Of a stretch of 15,859 nucleotides of DNA, positions 1,041 through 14,248 are shown piece after piece. The notes under the pieces are model-generated. The model was given only the letters and a program-made list of their open reading frames with translations. It did no database searches and was not told the origin of the DNA. How positions within the stretch are numbered: the first letter of the stretch is position 1; the number at the start of each line of letters is the position of its first letter. Source of the DNA: Actinoplanes subtropicus (GTDB lineage: Bacteria; Actinomycetota; Actinomycetes; Mycobacteriales; Micromonosporaceae); assembly GCF_000721705.1 (NCBI RefSeq), contig NZ_JOJL01000069.1, forward strand, positions 1 through 15,859, in the 5' to 3' direction. Both the position numbers and the translations under genes were made by a program.

Positions 1041-1125
1041 CCGTAGGCCTCCATCCCGGCCCGTGGTGTGTTGGCTTATTCGAGATCGCATCGTTCGTAC
1101 CGCACGGCGCGCGATGATGTGCCTC

Positions 1126-1635
1126 ATGCTGACGACGGAACCTGTCGACGCGTACGACTCGGCGGCGTGGCAGAGTTTCGCGGTGGCCGTTGTCGGGGCG
1201 GCGGCGGCCTTGGCCGGCCTGCTGGTGGTCGCGTGCTCGATCAACATCAACCGGGTGATAGAGCTTCCGTCCGTGGTCTCCCGGATGGCGGCGTCTCTGG
1301 CTCTGTTCACTGGTGTGCTGACCGCCGGTACCGTTCTGCTCGTGCCGGGCCAGGATCGTTGGGTGGCCGGCATCGAACTTGCCGCTGTCGGTGGCGTGAT
1401 GGCCGCGGCCACGGCGCGGAACCACGGCCTGCGCGCGGCCCGACGTGAGTATCGCCGAAACGCGCTGGGCGCCGCTGTGCTGGCGGTGATCTCATCCTTG
1501 TTGGTCGTGGCCGCTGGTGTGCTGTGCGCGGCTCGAGCGGGCGGGGGTTTGTACTGGTTGTTTCCCGGCGTGGTGGTCGCCTTTTCCGTCGGCCTCTTCA
1601 ACGCCTGGGTGGCGCTCGTCGAGATCCTGCGGTGA
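1126..1635 (+). CDS. Small multi-pass membrane protein of unknown function
   Basis: This protein of about 169 residues is almost entirely hydrophobic. Five probable membrane segments can be seen, beginning at FAVAVVGAAAALAGLLVV, AASLALFTGVLTAGTVLL, WVAGIELAAVGGVMAAA, LGAAVLAVISSLLVVAAGVL and LYWLFPGVVVAFSVGLFNAW. The N-terminal pattern AYDSAAWQSFAVAVVGAAAALAGL followed by SIN resembles a widespread actinobacterial family of small integral-membrane proteins, some automatically labelled FtsH-protease modulators. That label is not supported by anything visible here. The start is uncertain: ATG codons at 1114, 1117 and 1126 and a GTG at 1063 share the frame, and none has a clear ribosome site. 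The family-like part begins just after 1126. It sits alone between folD and the kinase-cyclase gene, 44 bases upstream of the latter, so co-transcription is possible. Confidence 0.75.
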   Translation: MLTTEPVDAYDSAAWQSFAVAVVGAAAALAGLLVVACSININRVIELPSVVSRMAASLALFTGVLTAGTVLLVPGQDRWVAGIELAAVGGVMAAATARNHGLRAARREYRRNALGAAVLAVISSLLVVAAGVLCAARAGGGLYWLFPGVVVAFSVGLFNAWVALVEILR

Positions 1636-1679: not shown

Positions 1680-4600
1680 ATGATCTCGGCTGTGGACGGC
1701 TCTCATCATCTGGGAGAGCTCGCACCACCGGTCCCGCACGACGTCGAGCTGATTGGCGAAATCGGACGTGGCTCACAGAGCGTCGTATACCGGATACGAC
1801 GCGACGGTGCTGACTATGCGTTGAAAACATCCCTGCAGCGGGTGCCAGGGCGGGCGGATGCCCGGGCAATGCAGCGGGAGTCGGCGCTGCTCGCCTGGAT
1901 CAGCCATCCGAACCTTCCCGAGGCCTACGAAAGCGGCATCGTTGATGGTCGGCCGTACCTGATAATGGATCTGGTCGAAGGTTGCGACGTCGCGACTCTG
2001 ATCCGGCGGGCGGCCTTGCCGTTCGCCCAGGTCACGGACATCGGTCGCCAGGTCGCCGCAGCCCTCGGCGCGTTGCATACGGCGGGTCTCGTCCACCGCG
2101 ACGTGAAGCCGACGAACATCGTGCTTCAACCCGACGGCCGGGTCCGCCTTCTCGACCTGGGTCTGGCGGTCCGGGGAGCATACGCCGACAGCGAAGCGGA
2201 GCGGGCGGCCGTCGGGACGCTGACCTATGCGGCGCCCGAGCAGTCCGGCATGTTGAAGCGCCCCGTGGACTTACGCTGCGACCTTTACGCACTGGGCGGC
2301 GTCATCTACGAGTGCCTGACCGGTCATCCGCCGTACGAGGCCGAAGACATCGGCGATTTGCTTTGGCAACACGCCAGCGCAGCGGTGCCGGATCCCCGGC
2401 AGGGCCGGCCGGAGGTACCAGCTCAGTTGGCGGCGATCACCGTCAAGTTGCTCGCCAAGGATCCTGACGACCGGTATCAGTCGGCGGAGGGCGTAGCGTT
2501 CGACCTTGAGCGTTGCACCCGTGAGTCGGCCGGGCCCTGGCAGTTGGGCTGCGAAGACGCGCCGGTCGACGTCAACAGTTCGCGGCCCGTCGTCGGGCGC
2601 GACGCCGAATGCGCCGCCTTGGTCGCCGCGTGGGAGCGAACCCGCGAGGGCTGGGGCGGGATCGCCGTGATCCACGGCCCGACGGGCATCGGCAAGACCC
2701 GGCTCGCCCAGGAGATCGCCCGGCGGGTCCGAGGTCTGGGTGCACCCGTCCTCACCAGCCGTTGCGGCGCGGACGGTCCGCCGCTCGGGGCTCTCCGGGC
2801 CGCGGTGGAGGCCTACGTCCGGTCCACCCCGCGGCTTGCCGACGGTGACCGGCCGGACGAGGACACGCCGCAAACGACCAGGGCGACCGCGCGGCTCGTT
2901 GCCCGGTTCGCACCGGGGCTCGCCGTCGCATCGTGCACCGAGCCGACGCTCGACACCGAGCAGGAGGCATCGGTCGAGGCCGCGATGGAGTTGTTCGCGG
3001 ACTTCGCTCGGTGCCACGCCGGCGCACTGCTGATCCTCGACGATGCCGAACACCTCGACGAAGCGACCCGCGGCCTGCTGCGACGCCTTGAGCTCCGGCT
3101 GCCGGAAACGCCGCTTCTCGTTCTGTTGGCGGCATCCGCCGCGGACGGCCTCGGCGTGACCGTGGAGACCGATGTTCGCCTCCATGACCTCGGAACCGAC
3201 ACCGTTCGAACGCTCGTGACGCAGGCGTCGAGGCACGTGTCCGCAGGCGGCCAAATCGTCGAACGGGTACTGGCCCGCGGTGCCCGGACTCCGCTGGAGG
3301 TTCATGAGTACCTGGCGGCCGTCCTCGATGCCGGTCTGCTGACTCCGCATTGGGGTGAATGGCGCCTGGACGTGGCACGGCTCGACACCTTGGCTCTGCC
3401 GCACGACATCATCGAACTGATCCGGTGCCGGCTCGACCGGCTAACGGATCCCGCGCGAGCCCTGCTGTGCGTCGCCGCGCTGGTCGGGACACGTTTTCCG
3501 CTGGGGCTCGTGGCCGCAGCGTGCGCTATGGAGAAAGACGAGGTCATCCGGCTCCTGGGGCAGGCGACGGACGCCGGCGTCCTGGAGGCGCTGGGCAGCG
3601 AGTGGGCGTTCACCCACGACTGCCTGCGTAACGCCCTGCACGACGAAATGGCCGAGGACCTCCGTCGCGATCTGCACGAGAGGATCGCCGCAGTGCTCTT
3701 GGTAGATGCCGGCGACCAGGAGACCGCCGCCGAGACGCTCTATTCATTGGCCAGACACTGCGCGGCCGGCCGGCCGGAACACGATCCGGTCCGCTCGGCC
3801 GAGATTCTGCTTGCCGCCGGACTCCGCGCGTTGACCGACGATGCCCCGATGCAGGCCGTTTCGCTTCTGAAGCTGGTGCCCGGTCTCGCCGAATTGGTGG
3901 AGCGGAACGGCGGACACGGACTGTCGGTGGATCGCGCGCGGGAGGCACTGGCCGGCGCCCTTCATGCCGCGGGCTCCTTCACCGAGGCCGTCGACATGTA
4001 CGGGCAAGCGCTGCGATCCGCGTCGGAATCTGCAGATCGGGTCCGGATTCTGCTGGCCATCGCCAAGGTCTACAACACCGAGTGGCGAGTCGGCCCACAA
4101 CTGGAGCATGTGGATCGGGCCCTGGAAGAACTTGGCGTCCGGATGCCGGAGAAGACACTGTTGTTGCTGCTCACCTCGCTCGGCTTGTTCGTCCGGGGCC
4201 TGGGGGTGGCGTTGACCAGGTCCGGTCGCGCGACCAGGCGGCCGGAGCGACGCGAAGGTAGCCGGCGGCTGGCGGCGGCCTACGGTGCGCTGGCGGGCGC
4301 GGCGATACAGGACGGCAACCCCCTCCGAAGCGTGGTCGCGACCCTGCGCCTGCTCTATCCGGCGGCCCAGCTGGGTGACTCCGTGGAGTACGCGAACGCG
4401 CTCGCCCACGTCCACGTCCTGACGACGATAGTCGGTCTTCGGCGCTATTCCGGGATGATCAAGCGGGCCATCGCGGTGGCGGAACGGCTGGGCGACGCGC
4501 GGCTGCGCAGCCGAATGGTGTGGGTGAGCCACGGTGCAAGCGTGGTCGCGGGCCGGTCGCACAACAACAAACTGCTGCTCCGGCAGGCGCAGCACGACCG

Positions 4601-6950
4601 GGACCTGCCGTTGATGGAGTACGTCACCGCCATCGTGGCGAACTGTGCAGAGCTACTCAACCGTGGGCACGCCGAGCCTGCCGCGCGGCTTTACGAGCAG
4701 GCCAGGCGCCGAGTCGAGGCGGCCGACCTGCACCATCCGGCTCTGGGCCTCATCGACATCGCCGGCGCGGCCGCCCGGGGCCGCATCGCCGACGCGGACC
4801 GGATACTCGGGCAGCTCATCGGGGATCCGGTGTACACCACCGGCATGCTGCGGACCCACCTGCTCGCGGTCCGGGCGCACGTCGCGGTGGAGCAACGAGA
4901 CCTCGGCGATATTTTCGACACCATTGCCGTGGAGTCCGCACAGTGTGGTACCCACCTGCCGGCGCATGCACGGCCGCTGTGGGTCGCCCTCGCCTACGGC
5001 CGGATCGAACAATGCCGTACCGCGTCATCCGCTCACCAGCAGACCGCCATGCAGACGGCGGAACGCACGGTTGCCACATTGGGCAAGGCAGCGGTCAGCC
5101 CCGACATGGCCGCCCACCACACCGTCGCCCGCGCCTACCTCCCCCACCTCCGCGGGGACCACGAGGCGGCGCTGGCCATCCTGAATCAGGCCGACCCCAG
5201 GTTACGGCGCAGCGACACGCCGCTGGCGTTGTACGAAGCGGCCAGGCTCCGCGCCCGCGCGCTCGCGGCTCTCGGCCAGCACGACAGCGCCGTGGCACAG
5301 GCCAAGGCAGCCGCATCGCTGGCTGCCACGCACGGCTGGCCGCACCGGATCGGGTGGTTGCGCGCGGAGTTCGCCGCCCTCGCCGAAGACGACTCCCCCT
5401 CGATGGCAGGGCGCCGCCATTCGATGCCGGGGCACACCGACAATCCCGATGGTGATCACGTGCTCCGGCGCAGGTTGGCAGCCATCGAACAGATCAGTCT
5501 CGCCGCATCGCGTGTCCTCGATCCGGCCGAGCTCACCAGAGTCGCGCTCGATGAGGCAATTCGGATGCTGGGCGCCGATCGCGCGTTCCTGTTCCTCGCC
5601 GAGAGCAACGATGCGGACCCCACCGCCGTGCCTCGACTGAGTCCACATCTGGGACGGGACTCCTCCGGCAACGACATCGGAACGCTGACCGGCTACGGAT
5701 CGACTCTGGTGGAGACCGTGCGTACCTGCCGGAAGCCACTCGTTGTCACCAGCACCGACGAGGGGGCCGCTCTCGGTTCGCGCAGTGCGGTGATGTACGG
5801 ACTGCGGAGCATGATCGTCGCACCGATGCTGCTGGAAGGACGCCTCATCGGGGTGGTCTACCTGGACAGCCGAATAGCGAAAGGCATGTTCGCCACCGAA
5901 GACCTCGGGACCCTCGGCGCTATCACCAACCACGTGGCGGCCGCCCTGGAGACCGCTCGTGCCGCACAGCTGGCGTTGGCTGTCCGGGCCGCGGAGGAAC
6001 GCCACGACACCTCGGAGATGATCCGCCGCGCGCTGACCGATCTGACCGCAAGCCTCGATCCCCGAGACGTGCTGACACGTCTCGCCGCGTCGGTGCGCAG
6101 AGCCGTCCCAGCCGACGGATGCCGGCTCGTCGTCCGGGACGGGGACACCTTTCACCTCTACGACGCGACGACCCCGCAACTGCCCATTTCCACGCCGGCC
6201 GTGACGCTGGACGAGGAATCCTGCGAATCGCTTCGCGCGCGGAAGCCGACATTCGGCGGCCCGCGTGAACTTCCCCTACTACCCGGCATGAAGTCATGGC
6301 TGGCGGTACCACTGCACACCAAGCAGGAGGCCGTCGGCGTGATCCTGATCGGAACGGCCGAAGGTGGCACGTACCGGCAGTCTCACCTCGACCTGGCGAG
6401 CACGCTCGTCTGCCAAGGCATGGTCGTCTACGACAATGCCCGGTTGTTCAGCCGGCTCCGGGTCATGGCGTCGACCGATGAGCTGACCGGTGTGCCGAAC
6501 CGGCGCTGCTTCTTCGAGCTGGGCCGGCGCCAAGTGGCCGTGAGCCTGGAACAGGGTAGACCGCTCGCGGCCCTCATGGTCGATATCGACAACTTCAAGA
6601 AGGTCAACGACACCTACGGACATCAGGTCGGCGACCAGGTCATCCGTGCCGCGGCGGACCGGATGTCCCGGGCGACACGCGAGACCATCCTGTTCGGACG
6701 CTATGGCGGCGAGGAGTTCGCGATCCTGCTCGCCGTCGGCGACAGTGCGATGACAGTCGCGGAACAAATCAGAAGTGCCGTTGCCGAGACACCGGTGGAA
6801 ACCGACGCGGGAGACCTCTCCGTCACAGTGAGTGTCGGTGTCACCTCGCTGCAGCCGGAGGACCGCGGCATCGACGAACTATTGTCGCGCGCCGACAGAG
6901 GGCTTTACCGAGCGAAAAGAAGTGGTCGTAATCGCGTGATGAATGAGTGA
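1680..6950 (+). CDS. Giant Ser/Thr kinase - AAA ATPase - GAF-GAF - GGDEF signalling protein
   Basis: This 1756-residue protein has at least five parts. Residues 20-280 are a Ser/Thr kinase with glycine loop GRGSQSVVY, Lys49, HRDVKPTN at 139-146 (catalytic Asp141), DLG at 159-161 in place of DFG, and APE at 185-187. Residues 300-700 look like an AAA_16-type ATPase, with Walker A GPTGIGKT (333-340) and Walker B LLILDD (450-455). Residues 700-1250 are helical and TPR-like, with a Leu-rich stretch near 825-846 that may touch membrane or pack internally. Two GAF domains follow (about 1260-1425 and 1445-1585). Residues 1596-1753 are a GGDEF cyclase with DELTGVPNRR, MVDIDNFKKVND (metal Asp1635) and GGEEF (1676-1680). 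It should make c-di-GMP; the RxxD inhibitory site reads R1667-E-T-I, so its Asp is missing. Related kinase-ATPase-GAF proteins often end in a histidine kinase. Two TTA codons occur, at 2271 and 5202. Targets and ligand are unknown. Confidence 0.93.
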   Translation: MISAVDGSHHLGELAPPVPHDVELIGEIGRGSQSVVYRIRRDGADYALKTSLQRVPGRADARAMQRESALLAWISHPNLPEAYESGIVDGRPYLIMDLVEGCDVATLIRRAALPFAQVTDIGRQVAAALGALHTAGLVHRDVKPTNIVLQPDGRVRLLDLGLAVRGAYADSEAERAAVGTLTYAAPEQSGMLKRPVDLRCDLYALGGVIYECLTGHPPYEAEDIGDLLWQHASAAVPDPRQGRPEVPAQLAAITVKLLAKDPDDRYQSAEGVAFDLERCTRESAGPWQLGCEDAPVDVNSSRPVVGRDAECAALVAAWERTREGWGGIAVIHGPTGIGKTRLAQEIARRVRGLGAPVLTSRCGADGPPLGALRAAVEAYVRSTPRLADGDRPDEDTPQTTRATARLVARFAPGLAVASCTEPTLDTEQEASVEAAMELFADFARCHAGALLILDDAEHLDEATRGLLRRLELRLPETPLLVLLAASAADGLGVTVETDVRLHDLGTDTVRTLVTQASRHVSAGGQIVERVLARGARTPLEVHEYLAAVLDAGLLTPHWGEWRLDVARLDTLALPHDIIELIRCRLDRLTDPARALLCVAALVGTRFPLGLVAAACAMEKDEVIRLLGQATDAGVLEALGSEWAFTHDCLRNALHDEMAEDLRRDLHERIAAVLLVDAGDQETAAETLYSLARHCAAGRPEHDPVRSAEILLAAGLRALTDDAPMQAVSLLKLVPGLAELVERNGGHGLSVDRAREALAGALHAAGSFTEAVDMYGQALRSASESADRVRILLAIAKVYNTEWRVGPQLEHVDRALEELGVRMPEKTLLLLLTSLGLFVRGLGVALTRSGRATRRPERREGSRRLAAAYGALAGAAIQDGNPLRSVVATLRLLYPAAQLGDSVEYANALAHVHVLTTIVGLRRYSGMIKRAIAVAERLGDARLRSRMVWVSHGASVVAGRSHNNKLLLRQAQHDRDLPLMEYVTAIVANCAELLNRGHAEPAARLYEQARRRVEAADLHHPALGLIDIAGAAARGRIADADRILGQLIGDPVYTTGMLRTHLLAVRAHVAVEQRDLGDIFDTIAVESAQCGTHLPAHARPLWVALAYGRIEQCRTASSAHQQTAMQTAERTVATLGKAAVSPDMAAHHTVARAYLPHLRGDHEAALAILNQADPRLRRSDTPLALYEAARLRARALAALGQHDSAVAQAKAAASLAATHGWPHRIGWLRAEFAALAEDDSPSMAGRRHSMPGHTDNPDGDHVLRRRLAAIEQISLAASRVLDPAELTRVALDEAIRMLGADRAFLFLAESNDADPTAVPRLSPHLGRDSSGNDIGTLTGYGSTLVETVRTCRKPLVVTSTDEGAALGSRSAVMYGLRSMIVAPMLLEGRLIGVVYLDSRIAKGMFATEDLGTLGAITNHVAAALETARAAQLALAVRAAEERHDTSEMIRRALTDLTASLDPRDVLTRLAASVRRAVPADGCRLVVRDGDTFHLYDATTPQLPISTPAVTLDEESCESLRARKPTFGGPRELPLLPGMKSWLAVPLHTKQEAVGVILIGTAEGGTYRQSHLDLASTLVCQGMVVYDNARLFSRLRVMASTDELTGVPNRRCFFELGRRQVAVSLEQGRPLAALMVDIDNFKKVNDTYGHQVGDQVIRAAADRMSRATRETILFGRYGGEEFAILLAVGDSAMTVAEQIRSAVAETPVETDAGDLSVTVSVGVTSLQPEDRGIDELLSRADRGLYRAKRSGRNRVMNE

Positions 6951-7026: not shown

Positions 7027-8016
7027 TTACCGGCCGGCACCCCTGCGGACGGGGCCGTCTGGCGCTGGCCGCATCCGCTCGCGCGCCGGGCTCGCCGTCG
7101 GACGCAGCGGCGGCCCGGGCCTGGAAGTAAGCCGGATGACCTCGTCCAGCCCGAGGTCGGCCATGGCATAGGCGGTGCCCCCCGGCACCAGGCCGGCCAG
7201 CGAACGTCCCGGGGGCATCTGTATCCAACGGTCGACGCCGCGTTCGGTGAGAATCGCGGTGGCCATGTCCCAGCGGACGCCGTGCTCGACGTTGTCAGCC
7301 AGCTCGCGCCGAAGCCGATCAGCCGTGACGATGGTCTGCCCGGTGACGCTGCCGGCGATGGGCGTTGCGGGATTGCGCAGGCGCACCGAGCGCAGCGCGG
7401 TGCGCAGCCGCTGCGCAGCCGGCGCCATGAGCGGACTGTGCGCGGGCACGGTCACCGCGAGCCGCCGGACCCGCGCACCGGCCATCTCCAGTTCGCGGGC
7501 CAGCATGCGCAGCCCATGCTCGGTGCCGGACGCGGTCGTCTGGCTCGGTGAGTTGGCATTGCTCGCCCAGACGTGGTGTCCGGCGTCGCGGAGGGCGGTG
7601 GCCGCCGCGTCGACGACGGCCAGTCCGGGACCGTCGATGACCAGCATCCCGGCGTCGGCTGGGCTTGCCGCGCGCATGGTGGCGCCACGTAGGCGCACCA
7701 GCAGCAGCCCGTCGGTGAAGTCGAGGGCGTGCGCGGCGACCGCGGCCGTCCACAGCCCGACCGAGTGACCGGCGAGGTGATCCGCATGGAGGCCGCGGCG
7801 TTGGGCCGTCCGATACCAGGCGGCGCCGGCGATGAGCAGGGCAAGCTGAGCGGCGGTGGTTTCGGCCAAAGCGCTTGCGCTGTCGAGGGTCAGCGGGTGG
7901 ATGCCGAGCGTATGGCGGGCCTGGTCGAGCAGGTCATCCGCCTCGGGCGGCAAATGATGCAGCATCCCGGGCCGTTGTTCACCCTGGCCGGGAAAGAGTA
8001 CGGCCGTAGCCGTCAT
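7027..8016 (-). CDS. mdcH: MdcH, malonyl-CoA:ACP transacylase of malonate decarboxylase
   Basis: This 329-residue FabD-like acyltransferase carries FPGQG (8-12), the nucleophile motif GHSVG (Ser85), VRLRG with the carboxylate-binding type Arg110, and VPAHSPLM with catalytic-type His193. In malonate decarboxylase systems MdcH moves malonyl from malonyl-CoA onto the carrier MdcC. This primes the decarboxylation cycle before MdcA takes over with acetyl/malonyl exchange. The ATG at 8016 overlaps the mdcG stop by four bases (ATGA); an in-frame upstream start would lie inside mdcG. It is the last gene of the operon. A Pro/Arg-rich tail of about 35 residues follows the last recognisable domain residues and is probably disordered. 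Taken alone it could be a fatty-acid or polyketide transacylase; its place in the mdc operon decides the call. Confidence 0.92.
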   Translation of the reverse strand: MTATAVLFPGQGEQRPGMLHHLPPEADDLLDQARHTLGIHPLTLDSASALAETTAAQLALLIAGAAWYRTAQRRGLHADHLAGHSVGLWTAAVAAHALDFTDGLLLVRLRGATMRAASPADAGMLVIDGPGLAVVDAAATALRDAGHHVWASNANSPSQTTASGTEHGLRMLARELEMAGARVRRLAVTVPAHSPLMAPAAQRLRTALRSVRLRNPATPIAGSVTGQTIVTADRLRRELADNVEHGVRWDMATAILTERGVDRWIQMPPGRSLAGLVPGGTAYAMADLGLDEVIRLTSRPGPPLRPTASPARERMRPAPDGPVRRGAGR

Positions 8017-8672
8017 GGGGCGGGCCAGATATCGGTTACCAAACGGGGGCCAAGGTCTGTGCGCAGCACGACAGGTGCGCCGGCCGGTTCGCGTAGCCAT
8101 TCCTCGAGCGCGAAGCCGCCGTTCGGGGTGAGCACGTGCAGGTCCACCCGGGTCGGCAGCCTCGCGGTGGCCTCGAATGCTTGTCGAGCGGCGGTTCGGT
8201 CAAGCGGTTGTTCGGCCAGCAGGAGGACATCGAGGTCGCTGCTGGCGGTGACGGTTGCCTGCCCGGTCACGAGTTCGAAACCGACGCTGCCGCCGGGGCC
8301 CCAACGGTGGCCCGGCAACGCGGTGTCGGCGACGTGGCTGAACCCGTGCAGCGCGCGGAACGCCGGCAGCCGTGCGCGATGTGGCGTCGCGGTGCGGGGC
8401 ACCCGGGCGGGGGGAACGGCACACGCGACGGCGTCGGCCGGCATCTGGGCGGGGAAGCGGCAGGAGCGGTGCGCGCCGCGGATGCCGACCGGGATCCAGC
8501 CGGTTTCCCTGGTGGCGCGCCGGACCACCACCCAGGCGCCTTCGTCACCACCGCCACTGCCGGCTGCCGCCGTGGTCGCGGCCTGGTCCAGCGGCCCACC
8601 GCCGGGGGCACGCAGCGCCGACCGGTCGGAGACAAGCAGCAGGTCGTGTGGGCTTGGCGCGGTTCGGTCCAT
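8013..8672 (-). CDS. mdcG: MdcG, phosphoribosyl-dephospho-CoA transferase
   Basis: This 219-residue protein attaches the 2'-(5''-triphosphoribosyl)-3'-dephospho-CoA precursor to the serine of MdcC, turning apo-carrier into holo-carrier. It belongs to the nucleotidyltransferase-like MdcG family. Family traits seen are VGFELVTGQATVTASSDLD (residues 130-148, with the SDLD acidic pair), VDLHVLTPNGGFALEEW (176-192) and VLRTDLGPRLVTDIW (202-216). The start at 8672 lies one base beyond the mdcE stop; longer in-frame starts would run into mdcE. A Gly/Ala-rich stretch at about residues 31-45 looks like a flexible insertion. MdcB, which makes the precursor, is encoded in the same operon. Confidence 0.92.
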   Translation of the reverse strand: MDRTAPSPHDLLLVSDRSALRAPGGGPLDQAATTAAAGSGGGDEGAWVVVRRATRETGWIPVGIRGAHRSCRFPAQMPADAVACAVPPARVPRTATPHRARLPAFRALHGFSHVADTALPGHRWGPGGSVGFELVTGQATVTASSDLDVLLLAEQPLDRTAARQAFEATARLPTRVDLHVLTPNGGFALEEWLREPAGAPVVLRTDLGPRLVTDIWPAP

Positions 8673-8673
8673 G

Positions 8674-9501
8674 TCAGGCGTTCCACGCGTCGGCGACAAG
8701 GTCGCGAACTTGTATCGACAACGCGCGGTTGGTTCGGGCCTGCGGCGATTCGAGTCGGCACCGTAGGTCGCTCGGTCCTTGGCGGGCCGCGTGGACAGCC
8801 TCGGAGAGCGCCGAGCGCACCCTGGCGATGTCACCCGGATCCGGGCGGGCGGGCCGGCACACGACGACAGTGGAGTGGACCGCGCCCAGCGAGGCGAAGG
8901 AGGCCGCATCGTAGGCGGTGGCCGGGACGATACGCGCTGTCGCGTCGAGCTCCTCGAGGGAGCGATGGGTGATCCGAGCGGCGGACGGCTTGGACATCAC
9001 CTGTATGGCGACGCCGTCGTGGTCAAGAAGGACGATACGGTTGGCCTGCAGCCCGATGGCCAGGAATCCGCCGGACATGGCCTTTCCGGCGACGAGCGCG
9101 ACGACCGGATGGCCGAACGATCGTGCGCTGGCGACGGCGTGCACGGAGGCGGCGAGCGACTGGTGCAGGCCGGCGAGCTCCTCGACGTAGCCGTACGCCT
9201 GGCCGGGCACGTCCACGACGACGACGATGGCCCGGGGCCGCGGCCTGCCGTGGTCCTGCCGGATGATCCGCCGGATCATCTGGGCGATCGCCCAGCCTTC
9301 GTCGATCCCGACCTCGCCGGTGCGGGCGCGCGGAAATCTGGCGTCCGGGTCGGGCACCACGGCGGCCAGGAGCGCCGGCTCGTCATCAAGGTGGCAGGCG
9401 CCGACCCGCAGCGACCGCGGGATCGGCACGCCGCCGGCGTCTCCGGTCGTGTCCGCGAGGACATCGAACCAGACGGACCCGGTGGAGACCTGGGCCGTCA
9501 T
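8674..9501 (-). CDS. mdcE: MdcE, malonate decarboxylase gamma subunit
   Basis: This 275-residue crotonase-fold protein is one half of the acyl-carrier decarboxylase; MdcD is the other. Together they decarboxylate malonyl-S-MdcC to acetyl-S-MdcC. Visible motifs are DVPGQAYGYVEE (97-108), GKAMSGGFLAIG (139-150), a glycine-rich loop of the kind that builds the oxyanion hole, and QVMSKPSAARIT (167-178). All are typical of MdcE and related to acyl-CoA carboxylase carboxyltransferase subunits. The ATG at 9501 is chosen because it overlaps the mdcD stop by four bases and is preceded by GGGAGGT, a good ribosome site. A longer in-frame reading would extend far into mdcD. The tight coupling suits a fixed 1:1 D/E ratio. 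Confidence 0.94.
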   Translation of the reverse strand: MTAQVSTGSVWFDVLADTTGDAGGVPIPRSLRVGACHLDDEPALLAAVVPDPDARFPRARTGEVGIDEGWAIAQMIRRIIRQDHGRPRPRAIVVVVDVPGQAYGYVEELAGLHQSLAASVHAVASARSFGHPVVALVAGKAMSGGFLAIGLQANRIVLLDHDGVAIQVMSKPSAARITHRSLEELDATARIVPATAYDAASFASLGAVHSTVVVCRPARPDPGDIARVRSALSEAVHAARQGPSDLRCRLESPQARTNRALSIQVRDLVADAWNA

Positions 9502-10340
9502 GGCACCTCCCGCGTGACGATCGCCGTGAACTCGGCCGGTGTCGGCCGCCACCTGTGGTCGAACGCGGCCAGCATCCGCTGCGCCTGGTCGATCCGTTCG
9601 GCACGCGGCGGGTGGGCATCGGGCACCGTACGCCAGATCTGATGTGCGGCGGCGACCACCGACTCGATCGCGTCGTCGACGAGGACCTCGGCCTGGCCGG
9701 TGGTGACGCGTTGGGCACCACCGATCGTCGCCCACACCGTCGCCCGGTCGGAGGCGTCCAGCTCGTCGATGCCGGCCTCGGTCTCGATGACCTCGGGTCC
9801 GTTGAGGCCGAGCCGGCCGTACCGGGTCATGATCAGATGACTGGTGAGGCCCGCCACGATGCCCATGCCGCCGAAGCAGCCGACGGGTCCGGGAATGACG
9901 CCGACGACGGGTCCATGTCTGGTCAGTTCCACCAAGGCGGCATGGATTTCTGCGACAGCGAGCAAGCCCAGGTTGGCCTCCTGGAGGCGGATGCCGCCAC
10001 TGTCGAGGACGAGGACCACCCGGGTCGGTGTGCCGCTACGGCGATCGTCGAGTGCCCGCTCGAGCGCGGCGGCCAGTTTTGCGCCGGACACCTCACCGAC
10101 GCCGCCGCCCTGAAAGGCGCCGTCGAGAGCCAGGACAGCGGCGCTGACGCCGTCGATGGTTCCGCGCCCGATGACGGCGCCGTCGTCGCTTTGCGGGACG
10201 ATGCCCTGCCGGGGCAGGTGGGGGGACTCGAGAAGGTCGAACGGCCCGAGGATCTCGCGGAACGTGCCGGGGTCCAGCAGCGCCTGGACGCGTTGGCGGG
10301 GGCGCAGTTGGCTGAAGGCCGGACGGATGCGGGCACTCAT
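9498..10340 (-). CDS. mdcD: MdcD, malonate decarboxylase beta subunit
   Basis: This 280-residue carboxyltransferase-fold protein has a length typical for MdcD. It pairs with MdcE to release CO2 from the malonyl thioester on MdcC. Motifs seen are VLDSGGIRLQEAN (111-123), VIPGPVGCFGGMGIVAG (148-164), a double-glycine loop expected to hold the thioester carbonyl, and LGLNGPEVIE (177-186). The ATG at 10340 overlaps the mdcC stop by four bases, and the gene's own stop overlaps mdcE by four bases, indicating translational coupling on both sides. No biotin-related gene is present, which fits the biotin-independent type of malonate decarboxylase. Confidence 0.95.
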   Translation of the reverse strand: MSARIRPAFSQLRPRQRVQALLDPGTFREILGPFDLLESPHLPRQGIVPQSDDGAVIGRGTIDGVSAAVLALDGAFQGGGVGEVSGAKLAAALERALDDRRSGTPTRVVLVLDSGGIRLQEANLGLLAVAEIHAALVELTRHGPVVGVIPGPVGCFGGMGIVAGLTSHLIMTRYGRLGLNGPEVIETEAGIDELDASDRATVWATIGGAQRVTTGQAEVLVDDAIESVVAAAHQIWRTVPDAHPPRAERIDQAQRMLAAFDHRWRPTPAEFTAIVTREVP

Positions 10341-10657
10341 GGCGCCACCGCTGGAGGCGGGTTGGTCGCGGCAAGCTCACGCGCTTGCCCGAGGCGCAGC
10401 GACACCATGCCCGGAGTGGCGCCCGAGTCGTTGATCTCGTATCGGGCGCGAAACGCGCCGTGCTCGAAAAAGCGGTCCAGCACCCTCTGCCACCGGGCGC
10501 CATGTCCATCGACGCTGGTACGAAGCGCGATCGTCGCGGTTGGCCGCCCCGGATCGGGAAGCATCACGATCTCCAGATCACCCGAGGCGACGACGCCGAC
10601 GTGGATGGGCCGGTCGAGGATGTCGTCCGCGTCGTACACGAACGTCAGCTCTTGCAT
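10337..10657 (-). CDS. mdcC: MdcC, malonate decarboxylase acyl-carrier protein (delta subunit)
   Basis: This 106-residue protein is the carrier that swings the acyl group between MdcA and the MdcD/MdcE decarboxylase. The motif VVASGDLEIVMLP places the modified serine at position 25. Ser25 is also the known attachment site of the triphosphoribosyl-dephospho-CoA arm in Klebsiella MdcC. It is not a standard DSL-type acyl carrier, and no DSL motif is present. The ATG at 10657 lies within the end of mdcB (13-base overlap) and is preceded by GGAG and AGGA sequences. The C-terminus has a short Pro/Ala tail. MdcB, which makes the arm, and MdcG, which attaches it, are encoded in the same operon. Confidence 0.93.
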   Translation of the reverse strand: MQELTFVYDADDILDRPIHVGVVASGDLEIVMLPDPGRPTATIALRTSVDGHGARWQRVLDRFFEHGAFRARYEINDSGATPGMVSLRLGQARELAATNPPPAVAP

Positions 10658-11568
10658 TCCTGGTCCTCTCCGTCGCCGGGTGGCGGCGTGGGTGGTTCGT
10701 CAGGGATCGTGACCTGCTCAAGCAGCATCGCCAGGGCAAGCATGTCTGCACTGCCGCCCGGTGACAGCCGACGGTCGACCAGCGCGCGGTCGAACCGTTC
10801 CAGGGCCCGCATCCCGGCCTCGGTGGTCGTACCGCCGGATCGAAGCACTTCGGCGGCCGTGCCGCGGGCGAAGATCAGGCCGGCCCGGCCGCCCCGGCTC
10901 AGCAGGCAGGTGTCGTCGAGGCGGGCTATGCAGTGCAGCAGGGCGTCGAGCCGGGCGTGCGTCGGGCCGGCGCCGCGGGCCATGGCGCGCCGCATGGTGG
11001 TCAAGGCGCCCAGCGCCAGCGGGAATCCGGCCCTGGCCGCGCCGACGGCGCCGCCGACGCGGTAGCGCGCGCGGACCTCGCGGCCCTTGGTGCCGACGAA
11101 AGCCGAAGCCGGGTCGTCGTGGGCGGCAATGGCGGCGACAGTGGACAAAAGCGCTCCGGGGGCGGGCCGTTGCCCTCGCCGTGCCGCGGCGGCAACCGTG
11201 AGCCCGAGTGCCCAGATGGCGCCGCGGTGCGTGTTGACGCCACCGGTCGCCCGGTCCATGGTGCGCTCCCCTGCACGACCGATGCGGCCCAGTTCCGCCC
11301 GCAGGCTCGCACCCGCGAGCGAGGAGCGCCCACTCTGCGCCAGTTGGCGGAACGTGTCGCGGAGCGCGTCGGCGGACGCGATCATCATCGCGACGGTCAT
11401 GTCGCGGTGTGCACCGCTGCCGCGAAGGTCGACCAGGCCGGGCTTCGGGGTGAGCAGCGCCTCTTCGAACAACGCGTGCACGGCGGCGGACGCCAACTCG
11501 TCGTCGCTCAGCGGGGCAGCGTCGAGATCCGAGGCGATGGCGGAGGTCTGCGAAGGCACGGCGGTCAC
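10645..11568 (-). CDS. mdcB: MdcB, triphosphoribosyl-dephospho-CoA synthase
   Basis: This 307-residue CitG/MdcB-family enzyme joins ATP and 3'-dephospho-CoA to give 2'-(5''-triphosphoribosyl)-3'-dephospho-CoA plus adenine, the precursor of the MdcC prosthetic group. Motifs visible are LLTPKPGLVD (38-47) then GSGAHRDM (50-57), TGGVNTHRGAIWALGL (108-123), RYRVGGAVGAARAGFP (168-183) and LSPGGSADMLA (268-278). All are typical of the family. Translation starts at a GTG at 11568 that overlaps the mdcA stop by four bases (GTGA); no strong ribosome site is seen, so coupling to mdcA is likely. The last 20 residues are Pro/Asp/Glu-rich and lie beyond the conserved core. CitG was considered, but no citrate lyase genes are nearby. 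Confidence 0.94.
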   Translation of the reverse strand: MTAVPSQTSAIASDLDAAPLSDDELASAAVHALFEEALLTPKPGLVDLRGSGAHRDMTVAMMIASADALRDTFRQLAQSGRSSLAGASLRAELGRIGRAGERTMDRATGGVNTHRGAIWALGLTVAAAARRGQRPAPGALLSTVAAIAAHDDPASAFVGTKGREVRARYRVGGAVGAARAGFPLALGALTTMRRAMARGAGPTHARLDALLHCIARLDDTCLLSRGGRAGLIFARGTAAEVLRSGGTTTEAGMRALERFDRALVDRRLSPGGSADMLALAMLLEQVTIPDEPPTPPPGDGEDQECKS

Positions 11569-13217
11569 CAGGGGCGGAACCGGGTCGGCGGTTCATACAA
11601 GCCGCGAGACCAGACAACCAGCTCGTCGACGCTGCGGGCAGCCAGCAGCGACCGGCTCGCGTCCGATCGCCGTACCCCCAGATCCTCGGGCAGCGCGAGG
11701 ATGCCGTCGCGGCGCAGCGCTTCCCGGTGATCGCGGGTCGACCTCCGGCCCACCGGTCCCACCCCGGCGAGCGCGGCCACCGCCTCCCGGCGCTCCTCCA
11801 GGTCCCGGGCCCGGTAGAGGTAGGCCACCCCCTCCTCGCTGACCACGTGGGTAACGTCGTCGCCGTAGATCATCACCGGGGTCAGCGGCATGCCGGCGTT
11901 GCGTCCCACCGCGATCGCGTCCAGGCGCTCCACGTACTTGGGCCGGCCGGCCGCGCCGTAGCTCTCGGCGATCTGTACCACCAGCTTGCGCCCGCGTTCG
12001 GTGCCGAGGTCGCCGGTGCCCCGCGCCAGGCTCAGCCAGGCCGGGGTCGGGTGTCGGCGTCCGCGAGCGTCGCTGCCGAGGTTGGGGGCGCCGCCGAACC
12101 CGGACAGCCGGCTGTCGGTCACCGTCGAGGAGTTCGCCTCGGTGTCGATCTGCAGCGTCGAGCCGATGAACATGTCCGCCGCGTACAGCCCCGCCGTCTG
12201 CGCGATCATGCGATGGGAACGCAGCGATCCGTCGCGACCCACGGCGAAGACGTCTGGGCGCGCGGCGACGTACCGCTCCATGCCCACCTCGCCACCGAAT
12301 GAGGTGACGGTGTCGACCCAGCCGCTCTCGATGGCCGGTATCAGCGTGGGGTGCGGGTTCAGGACGAAGTTGCGGGCGATCTTGCCGCGCAGGCCGAGAC
12401 GTTGACCGTACGTCGGCAGCAACAGCTCGATCGCTGCGGTGTCGTACCCGATTCCGTGGTTCAGCGAGGTGACCTGGTGCCGCTCGTAGACGCCCCGGAT
12501 GGCCAGCATAGCGAGGAGGACATGCAGGTCGGTGATCTGGGACGGGTCGCGGGTGAACAACGGCTCGATCTGGCATGGCCGGTCGGCCACCACGACGAAG
12601 TCCACCCAGTCGCCGGGGATGTCCACCCGCGGCAGCCGGTCACCGGTGACCACCTGGTTCACCTGAGCTATGACAATTCCGCTCCGGAATGCGGTCGCTT
12701 CCACGATGGTGGGGGTGTCTTCGGTGTTCGGCCCGGTGTAGAGGTTGCCGGTAGCGTCGGCCTGCTCCGCGGCGACCAGCGCGATGTCCGGGATCAGGTC
12801 GACGAACAGGCGCGCGTACAGCTCGAGGTAGGTGTGGATGGCACCGACGGTCATGGCGCCCTCGGCCAGCAGCGCCGCGACCCGGGCGGATTGCGGCCCC
12901 GCGTAAGAGAAGTCGATGCGTGAGGCGATGCCCCGTTCGAACAGATCGACGTGCTCCGCCCGGGAGATCGATGGGATGAGCATGTGCAGCCCGTGGGTTC
13001 GCAACGGATCCACGGTCACGAGGGCTCGCGAAAGGAAGTCCGCCTGCTTCTGGTTGTCACCCTCCAGAACCACTCGGTCGCCCGGCCTGATCACCGCATG
13101 CAACAGATCCACGATCCGCTCCGTGGGTACGACGGTTCCCCAGCCCAGAGCCGCGGCAGCGTCGAGGCGCCGCCGCTTGCGGTCGCTACGCCGCCGCCAC
13201 CTTCGCACCTCGGCCAT
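11565..13217 (-). CDS. mdcA: MdcA, malonate decarboxylase alpha subunit (acetyl-S-ACP:malonate ACP transferase)
   Basis: At 550 residues this matches the usual MdcA length. It exchanges acetyl on MdcC for free malonate, releasing acetate and giving malonyl-S-MdcC, and is related to CoA transferases. Stretches characteristic of the family include LEGDNQKQADFLSRAL, GLHMLIPSISRAEHVDLFE, RIDFSYAGPQSARVA, AADMFIGSTLQIDTEANSST and SRLSGFGGAPNLGSDARGR. The ATG at 13217 is the operon's first start and has AAGGAG seven bases upstream. It is followed by mdcB, mdcC, mdcD, mdcE, mdcG and mdcH in the order known from proteobacterial clusters. The divergent LysR gene begins 113 bases away. The very basic first 17 residues (many Arg and Lys) are unusual and may belong to a shorter real N-terminus. 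The identity is firm. Confidence 0.96.
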   Translation of the reverse strand: MAEVRRWRRRSDRKRRRLDAAAALGWGTVVPTERIVDLLHAVIRPGDRVVLEGDNQKQADFLSRALVTVDPLRTHGLHMLIPSISRAEHVDLFERGIASRIDFSYAGPQSARVAALLAEGAMTVGAIHTYLELYARLFVDLIPDIALVAAEQADATGNLYTGPNTEDTPTIVEATAFRSGIVIAQVNQVVTGDRLPRVDIPGDWVDFVVVADRPCQIEPLFTRDPSQITDLHVLLAMLAIRGVYERHQVTSLNHGIGYDTAAIELLLPTYGQRLGLRGKIARNFVLNPHPTLIPAIESGWVDTVTSFGGEVGMERYVAARPDVFAVGRDGSLRSHRMIAQTAGLYAADMFIGSTLQIDTEANSSTVTDSRLSGFGGAPNLGSDARGRRHPTPAWLSLARGTGDLGTERGRKLVVQIAESYGAAGRPKYVERLDAIAVGRNAGMPLTPVMIYGDDVTHVVSEEGVAYLYRARDLEERREAVAALAGVGPVGRRSTRDHREALRRDGILALPEDLGVRRSDASRSLLAARSVDELVVWSRGLYEPPTRFRPW

Positions 13218-13330: not shown

Positions 13331-14248
13331 GTGGTGAATGAGAACCTGGCTCATAGCGTCCTCGCGCCGGCGCTCGCGCAGCTGGCCGCGCTCGCCGACG
13401 ACCCGAACATCACCCGGACGGCGGCACGCACCGGTACTAGTCAGCCCAGTCTCAGCCGCACCATCCGCCGATGGGAAAAGCATCTAGGCATTCCGTTGCT
13501 GACGCGGGACGGCCGCGGCGTACGCCTGACCGAAGAGGCTTTCGCCATCGCCGCCGCGGCGGCGGAAGCCATCCAACTCGTCGACGACGCCGTCGACCGG
13601 GTCCGCGGCCGTGCCTCCGCCACCTCGCTGAGCCTCGGCTTCCTCAAGTCGCTCGGGCCTACCGTGGTCGCCGAACTCGTCGCGTCGTTCCTGCGCGACT
13701 CTCCCGAGGCGGTTCTCGCCCACCGCCAGGGATCCAGTGGCGAATTGCTGCACGCCCTCGACGAAGGCGCTATCGACGTCGCGGTCACCGCGCCCCGGCC
13801 GCCGGGCCAGTATGTATGGCTGCGCCTCGGCCGTCAGTCGCTGGCCCTCGTGGTGCCCGTGGGGCACCGGCTGGCCGGCGCCGGACCGGTCATGCTCACC
13901 GAAGTCCGCGATGAGCCGATGCTGGCCCTGTACCGGCGCTTCGATGCACGCAGGCGCGCCGACTCCCTCTGCGTGGCGGCCGGTTTCACCCCACGCATCG
14001 CATTGGAGGCTGACGACGTCACCATGGTGCGCGGCTACGTCGGCGGCGGCCTCGGTGTAGCCATCCTTCCGTCCGACACGGCGACCGCCGCGCGCACGGT
14101 CGACGTCCCGATCGATGCGGACACCGCGTGGCGCGACTTCGGCCTCGCCTGGCGGCCCGAACGCGTCAACCCGTCCAGCCGCAGGCTGCTGGCGCACGCA
14201 CGTCACTTGAACGCCCGTTACCCCGGCTGGGCAGACATCGTCGTGTGA
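13331..14248 (+). CDS. mdcR: LysR-family regulator, likely malonate-responsive (MdcR-like)
   Basis: This 305-residue protein has the normal length of a LysR regulator. Residues about 12-75 form the winged helix-turn-helix, with ITRTAARTGTSQPSLSRTI as the recognition region and a wing GIPLLTRDGRGVRLTE. Residues about 95-300 are the effector-binding fold, with LSLGFLKSLGPTVVAELV at its start and GGGLGVAILPS near its end. It is divergent from mdcA and is the only regulator beside the operon, so it probably activates mdc genes with malonate or a derived acyl-CoA. That ligand is inferred from position alone. The start is GTG at 13331 or the next codon, GTG at 13334. The gene converges with pabB downstream. 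The symbol reflects role by context, not proven orthology. Confidence 0.85.
   Translation: MVNENLAHSVLAPALAQLAALADDPNITRTAARTGTSQPSLSRTIRRWEKHLGIPLLTRDGRGVRLTEEAFAIAAAAAEAIQLVDDAVDRVRGRASATSLSLGFLKSLGPTVVAELVASFLRDSPEAVLAHRQGSSGELLHALDEGAIDVAVTAPRPPGQYVWLRLGRQSLALVVPVGHRLAGAGPVMLTEVRDEPMLALYRRFDARRRADSLCVAAGFTPRIALEADDVTMVRGYVGGGLGVAILPSDTATAARTVDVPIDADTAWRDFGLAWRPERVNPSSRRLLAHARHLNARYPGWADIVV

Follow-up and report, generated by a model that had tools for sequence, protein, structure and literature searches.

Described kinase-GAF chimeras, as treated in the relevant parts of two earlier papers, are of the HstK type and end in a histidine kinase (PMC2176072, PMC1262709). These dual kinases of cyanobacteria (cbSTKIII), which were compared by description only, resemble the protein reported here (hereafter, the giant) in combining an N-terminal Ser/Thr kinase fold, a GAF domain, and a second signaling enzyme at the C-terminus, but they terminate in HisKA-HATPase rather than GGDEF. 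The same is true of L105, another protein of Actinoplanes subtropicus, in which an AAA_16 domain is also present, as in the giant. Closer in output is a 1826-aa protein of Clostridium thermocellum, noted in 2005, that carries a Ser/Thr kinase, six TPRs, and a GGDEF domain, and from which it was suggested that Ser/Thr kinases may take part in c-di-GMP synthesis (PMC1262709). Compared by description, it shares kinase, TPR, and GGDEF in one chain with the giant, whereas AAA and GAF domains are not named in the passage that describes it (PMC1262709). MalT and other LuxR-type STAND regulators, such as that of locus L110, also place helical repeats after a STAND module, but their output is DNA binding (GerE in L110) and they have no kinase, GAF, or GGDEF match. 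The Idiomarina phytochrome-activated diguanylate cyclase (6et7, 5llw) has, like the giant, tandem sensor domains, a long helix, and GGDEF. Its sensor binds bilin and senses light, and to our knowledge it contains neither a kinase nor a STAND module. The modules and the general idea are already known, the proposal that a kinase feeds c-di-GMP having been in print since 2005.

The giant (P0001) is encoded on the forward strand at 1680..6950 of the window, a 15,859-nucleotide stretch of A. subtropicus DNA, in an ORF that runs from ATG to TGA and specifies 1756 aa. An alignment with the homolog P0002 takes in 99% of the giant at 51% identity. For the remaining 119 listed homologs identity is 36-43%, with all but P0008, P0019, P0111, and P0113 (i.e., 115/119) covering at least 90% of the query. 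This near-full-length homology indicates that the frame is not a chance ORF. Altogether, of 7989 candidates that were scored, 360 were homologs at E<=1e-30; the best 120 of these constitute the listed set and were aligned with the giant using MAFFT, a gap in the resulting 121-protein alignment being counted as a missing residue. Pfam identifies, in order and all on the forward strand, a Ser/Thr protein kinase (residues 24-269, 1749..2486; PF00069, 1.5e-36), an AAA_16 domain (residues 304-481, 2589..3122; PF13191, 2.2e-19), a first GAF domain (residues 1281-1423, 5520..5948; PF01590, 8e-19), a second, GAF_3-type domain (residues 1461-1576, 6060..6407; PF13492, 2e-12), and a GGDEF diguanylate cyclase domain (residues 1597-1752, 6468..6935; PF00990, 4.1e-41). 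Both GAF domains are also seen in AF2 models, and no membrane domain was recognized in the giant.

Hanks-type kinases are recognized by a beta3 Lys, an alphaC Glu, an HRD motif, a catalytic-loop Lys and Asn, and the Asp of DFG. Judged from its sequence, the giant has each of these, with a G-loop at 29-36, K49, E67, H139-R140-D141, K143, N146, and A185-P186-E187 all present and the DFG motif reading DLG (159-161). The solved structures nearest to this domain include PknE, StkP, and PknB. At the other end of the chain, both the GG[DE]EF signature (GGEEF, 1676-1680) and the metal-binding Asp (D1635-x-D1637) of diguanylate cyclases are found. Neither HisKA nor HATPase gave a Pfam match in the giant, placing it outside the HstK-type dual Ser/Thr-His kinases. 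The TOMM kinase/cyclase fusion model (TIGR03903) was considered and rejected, as it scored 187 bits against a curated cut-off of 705.75, with its best stretch at 296-722. Across the alignment, the kinase set (K49-E67-HRD-K143-N146-D159) is complete in 100/121 proteins, the cyclase set in 119/121, and a STAND set (GR, GK[ST], and D) in 97/121. All three are jointly complete in 77 of the 121, including the giant, and at least one residue is missing in the other 44. The preliminary description of this locus, which had placed kinase, AAA, GAF, GAF, and GGDEF in a single 1756-residue chain with Lys49, HRD, Lys143, Asn146, APE, DxD, and GGEEF retained, is borne out in domain order, intact frame, and every one of these residues. 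Its further claim, that two outputs appear active, holds in a more guarded form: since both active-site sets are intact and mostly conserved, two enzymatic outputs are plausible. It had called the second module simply an AAA ATPase, for which the AAA_16 match stands but a STAND switch is the better reading, and it had missed both the STAND/TPR module between AAA_16 and the first GAF domain and the absence of the I-site Asp.

STAND proteins carry a GR ahead of the P-loop, a Walker A motif of the form GxxxxGK[ST], and an acidic residue in Walker B. All of these are present in the giant (GR at 306-307, Walker A at 333-341 with K339, and Walker B at 450-455). A sequence search of residues 290-1270 against the PDB returned no match up to E 0.1, and the middle of the protein was therefore compared by fold. 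The AF2 model of the STAND/TPR region (pLDDT 86.5, pTM 0.83) matches folds including 6mfv, MalT, Apaf-1, and a plant NLR NB-ARC (NRC1 among the matches to the core), of which 6mfv and MalT have the best coverage. MalT chain 8bob_C aligns to positions 9-482 of the model, equivalent to residues 298-771 of the giant. In the predicted structure, the nucleotide-binding core is followed by the remaining helical and winged-helix part of a STAND module (approximately residues 482-658, 3123..3653) and a TPR-like helical superhelix (approximately residues 659-1230, 3654..5369), i.e., the winged helix and superstructure-forming repeats expected of a STAND architecture. The region left unannotated by Pfam is thus modeled as a STAND switch joined to a TPR superhelix.

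Residues 1262-1756 were modeled with high local confidence (pLDDT 90.3) and a low pTM of 0.56. In this model, a 49-residue helix connects the two GAF domains and a 33-residue helix (residues 1567-1599, 6378..6476; 306-338 of the model) leads from the second GAF into the cyclase. The first six Foldseek matches are all chains of the Idiomarina phytochrome-activated diguanylate cyclase, followed by other cyclases and, further down, by the GAF tandems of PDE5A and PDE2A. Feedback inhibition of diguanylate cyclases relies on an I-site, scored here as RxxD five residues ahead of GGDEF. In the giant this position (residues 1667-1670, 6678..6689) reads R1667-E-T-I1670; with the Asp of the feedback site lost, only weak inhibition by the product is expected there. 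The R..D pair is found in 95/121 aligned proteins and missing in 26/121, R..I occurring in the giant only, whereas RxxD is found in 5 and missing in 21 of the 26 family loci whose GGDEF motif could be read; the rates differ because the 121 proteins are the matches most like the giant. The own-genome paralogs L101 and L104 keep RxxD. The idea that I-site loss is special to the giant was dropped, given its frequency among relatives with intact GGDEF motifs.

A. subtropicus also encodes other kinase-AAA_16 giants, among them L105, with its HisKA-HATPase end, and L106, L107, and L116 (the last assigned by our own profile), which have one GAF and a GGDEF domain. Each of twenty regions, L116 among them, contains one kinase-AAA_16 giant. 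L115, from another family of the order, is arranged as kinase-AAA_16-GAF-PAS-GGDEF-EAL and shares kinase, AAA_16, GAF, and GGDEF with the giant, but differs in having a single GAF plus PAS and a terminal EAL. To place these proteins, a quick, unrooted tree without bootstrap was built from the kinase-to-STAND part of 51 rows, with a long-branch warning for L115 and L103; L108, L109, L110, L114, and the family row of L132 were left out as repeats of included loci. To assign the C-termini, Pfam was used for L105-L107, L115, L124, L127, L129, and L135, an H-box pattern alone for the seven other histidine kinase rows, and our own profile for the other GGDEF rows. The 27 GAF-GAF-GGDEF proteins all lie to the same side of a branch with SH-aLRT 99. 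The 23 sister giants comprise 12 with histidine kinase ends and 11 with GGDEF ends, interleaved in the tree such that each output label needs three changes, at least two of them forced by the starred branches. This interleaving points to swaps of output within the sister group and not among the relatives of the giant. The two groups differ as well in the catalytic-loop Lys, which is present in 26/27 sampled family members and in 0/23 sister giants, where S, T, or N takes its place. The sister giants (L105, L106, L107, and L116-L135) are perhaps, to judge by these residues, pseudokinases built on a chassis whose output enzyme varies. Separate genes of similar content were seen at L070 (2249-5058) and L078 (7503-10078), where a GAF-GGDEF frame is followed on the same strand by a Ser/Thr kinase frame.

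Whole-genome protein searches found a match at E 1e-100 or better in 34/36 Actinoplanes genomes, A. subtropicus included; G008 and G021 were without a match, and G031 matches in pieces. In other families of the order, a match was found in only 1/24 genomes. At the same threshold, the family-level sample gave 15/81 genomes and 7/44 genera, while the phylum sample gave 2/246 genomes at E 1e-70, one of which was A. subtropicus itself. The architecture is ordinary within one genus and rare across the phylum. A. subtropicus has at least five copies, namely the giant and those on contigs C5, C21, C42, and C54; because the genome searches score few candidates per genome, copy numbers are lower bounds. 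A single-protein search of genome contigs, in which 80/348 loci were kept, recovered loci that mostly had only the GGDEF end in common and is no measure of the spread of the architecture. No full-chain match was present in 11 genomes behind such GGDEF-end loci (9 of them not actinobacterial), a weak negative from a small sample, and a tblastn search of a plasmid collection at E<=1e-50 gave no match to the giant. The literature that was searched, most subscription journals lying outside its scope, yielded no functional study of the family. The expectation that such giants are known mostly with histidine kinase ends agrees with the portions of the literature on HstK-type chimeras cited above. 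As for the proposal that this is an under-described system, the want of a functional study speaks for it, but the family is nearly genus-wide, the giant is one of five copies, and the Clostridium precedent dates from 2005. What appears undescribed in the literature searched is the family itself, along with its narrow distribution, the intactness of both active sites, the way it differs from the sister giants, and its association with flagellated genomes.

The last of these emerged from the sample of 81 genomes, in which flagellin above the cut-off was found in 14/15 genomes with the family and 8/66 without it (Fisher p 2.3e-9, uncorrected for descent). Counted by genus, the figures are 6/7 and 4/37 (p 1.9e-4), and among 28 GGDEF-rich genomes they are 14/15 and 7/13 (p 0.029). 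Genomes were called GGDEF-rich at 33 or more GGDEF candidates, the lowest value among family-positive genomes; GGDEF match counts saturate at 39-40, and first-look candidate numbers were accordingly taken as a rough proxy. The link is confounded by GGDEF-richness and common descent, with GGDEF-rich genomes driving part of it. Flagellin was not matched in one family-positive genome (G111), and the eight flagellin genomes without the family lack it at the threshold used. A. subtropicus itself has two strong flagellin matches and one weaker, along with 85 GGDEF matches, pieces of split domains included. According to the relevant parts of published work, GGDEF domains are most numerous, within the actinobacteria, in zoospore formers and especially in Actinoplanes, which makes swimming spores (PMC10746217); Actinoplanes SE50/110 has 67 GGDEF or EAL proteins (PMC6828939). 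Work on actinobacterial c-di-GMP is said to concern the non-motile Streptomyces and Mycobacterium (PMC10746217), and the examined part of the table of diguanylate cyclases and phosphodiesterases of S. venezuelae contains no kinase-bearing member (PMC6205966). The giant likely belongs to the c-di-GMP network in flagellated Actinoplanes that form zoospores. A link to BldD, through which, according to the preliminary description, c-di-GMP controls development in actinomycetes, would be putative.

From the domain and motif content, the fold predictions, the grouping in the tree, the taxonomic distribution, and the flagellin co-occurrence, all of them computed, we infer gating, oligomerization, and kinase and cyclase activities within this setting, and we consider it somewhat probable that the giant is a diguanylate cyclase gated by its STAND module and equipped, in addition, with a Hanks-type Ser/Thr kinase. 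In such a protein, a protein or small-molecule cue would be received by the TPR superhelix and the two GAF domains, upon which the STAND module would swap ADP for ATP and oligomerize. This could bring the GAF-GAF-helix-GGDEF ends together as dimers that make c-di-GMP, and the N-terminal kinases, clustered by the same event, could phosphorylate each other, their own chain, or a partner. Phosphorylation might then tune the switch or constitute a second output. A simpler arrangement, which we regard as a serious contender though not the one to bet on, is that the cyclase is the sole output and that the kinase, through autophosphorylation, does no more than regulate its own chain. The unfused GAF-GGDEF and kinase genes that adjoin in L070 and L078 of Gemmatimonadales fit a kinase acting on a cyclase, and the kinase fold of the 23 sister giants, all without the catalytic-loop Lys, may be regulatory. 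On the other hand, the canonical HRDxK loop in 26 of the 27 family members and the six-residue set complete in 100 of the 121 proteins look as if catalysis matters, an observation that does not distinguish auto- from trans-phosphorylation. Far less probable is an immune-type STAND receptor resembling Avs or NLR proteins, in which infection would raise c-di-GMP or protein phosphorylation. Foldseek ranks Avs3 second for the STAND/TPR model and places CED-4 and plant NLRs in the first 50, the family is multi-copy, and the giant lies on a low-GC3, accessory-looking contig, but the fold matches of best coverage are 6mfv and MalT, and no defense gene was identified by Pfam among the ten other window ORFs scanned. 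PADLOC profiles match the giant as well (32 families), including C3a189, which spans kinase and AAA (48-465); the other 24 of the 25 matches listed cover the kinase part only, one of them reaching residue 306, and the PADLOC matches were set aside as defense evidence, being judged generic kinase matches.

A different question is whether this particular copy is decaying or was recently imported and has little function, which we consider improbable. Its GC3 of 0.805 lies below the 0.859-0.961 of eight other giants of A. subtropicus, its end branch is long (0.84), and it deviates at 17/271 conserved columns (rank 11/121, median 8) in addition to having lost the I-site Asp. Against this, the frame is intact over 5.3 kb, the catalytic residues checked are all present, and relatives with intact GGDEF motifs have commonly lost the I-site too. 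GC3 is 0.79-0.90 in the ten further genes on the contig, and the tetranucleotide profile of the contig is not set apart from other stretches of the genome. The window folD (117-950) is 77-78% identical to copies in two genomes of the same genus (G001 and G004) and on contig C47 of A. subtropicus, but only 44% identical to the genus-typical folD on C1, making it a second type. Assembly contamination was thought unlikely in view of this profile and the folD kin within the genus, and on such sequence signals we take the contig to be an accessory part of the same organism. The two nearest rows to the giant in the tree are its own-genome paralogs L104 and L101; a further paralog, L102, belongs to a 12-row group in which its close orthologs come from eleven other sampled genomes. 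No near ortholog of the giant was found in the 35 other genomes of the genus searched, the best full-length match being 43%, and this copy may do something special.

The surroundings of the gene were also compared. Between folD and the giant lies a 190-aa hydrophobic ORF (1063-1635, forward strand) with no Pfam match. Downstream is a convergent malonate decarboxylase set, together with a LysR regulator and a chorismate-binding enzyme. The malonate decarboxylase genes (7027-13217, reverse strand), with a divergent LysR regulator (13331-14248, forward strand), comprise an alpha subunit, a CitG-like protein, a carboxyl transferase, MdcE, MdcG, and an acyltransferase. In a comparison of 12 loci, from which a GC3 filter dropped the giant, the 190-aa ORF, mdcG, and mdcE of the window, no compared window gene was common to another family locus, and gene context therefore gives no function. 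Scans around the gene returned one promoter-like site against 0.5 expected and three terminator-like sites against 1.9 expected, none of them usable. Elsewhere, the family copy of three genomes of the same genus (L110, L111, and L114) sits in a conserved block with 81-96% identity between genomes, containing an adjoining 685-aa gene, a gene of 840 to 1274 aa, and a divergent STAND regulator of ~960 aa, in which GerE was found at L110; this shared block was seen only in these three of the 12 loci. At L101, on contig C5, the own-genome paralog is immediately preceded by a GGDEF gene of ~640 aa (412-2337).

Returning to the STAND-gated cyclase with its own kinase, a broader reading, tentative and on present evidence rather doubtful, is that these proteins form a lineage-specific class of receptors in actinomycetes that have flagella and form zoospores. 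A single ATP-driven, NLR-like assembly step would switch on kinase and cyclase together, feedback control by c-di-GMP would have been shed repeatedly, and related giants on the same kind of chassis would have swapped their output between histidine kinase and cyclase. If this is true, there would be a direct tie between Hanks-kinase signaling and c-di-GMP as these organisms switch between sporangium, swimming spore, and mycelium. The sister giants provide a natural experiment in which one sensory chassis is combined with a changing output enzyme. Gene studies have been published for Actinoplanes missouriensis, and the parts of the family could be examined there. With several paralogs in a genome and separable kinase, STAND, and cyclase parts, the family of the giant is a conserved, countable candidate for feeding the c-di-GMP network of Actinoplanes.
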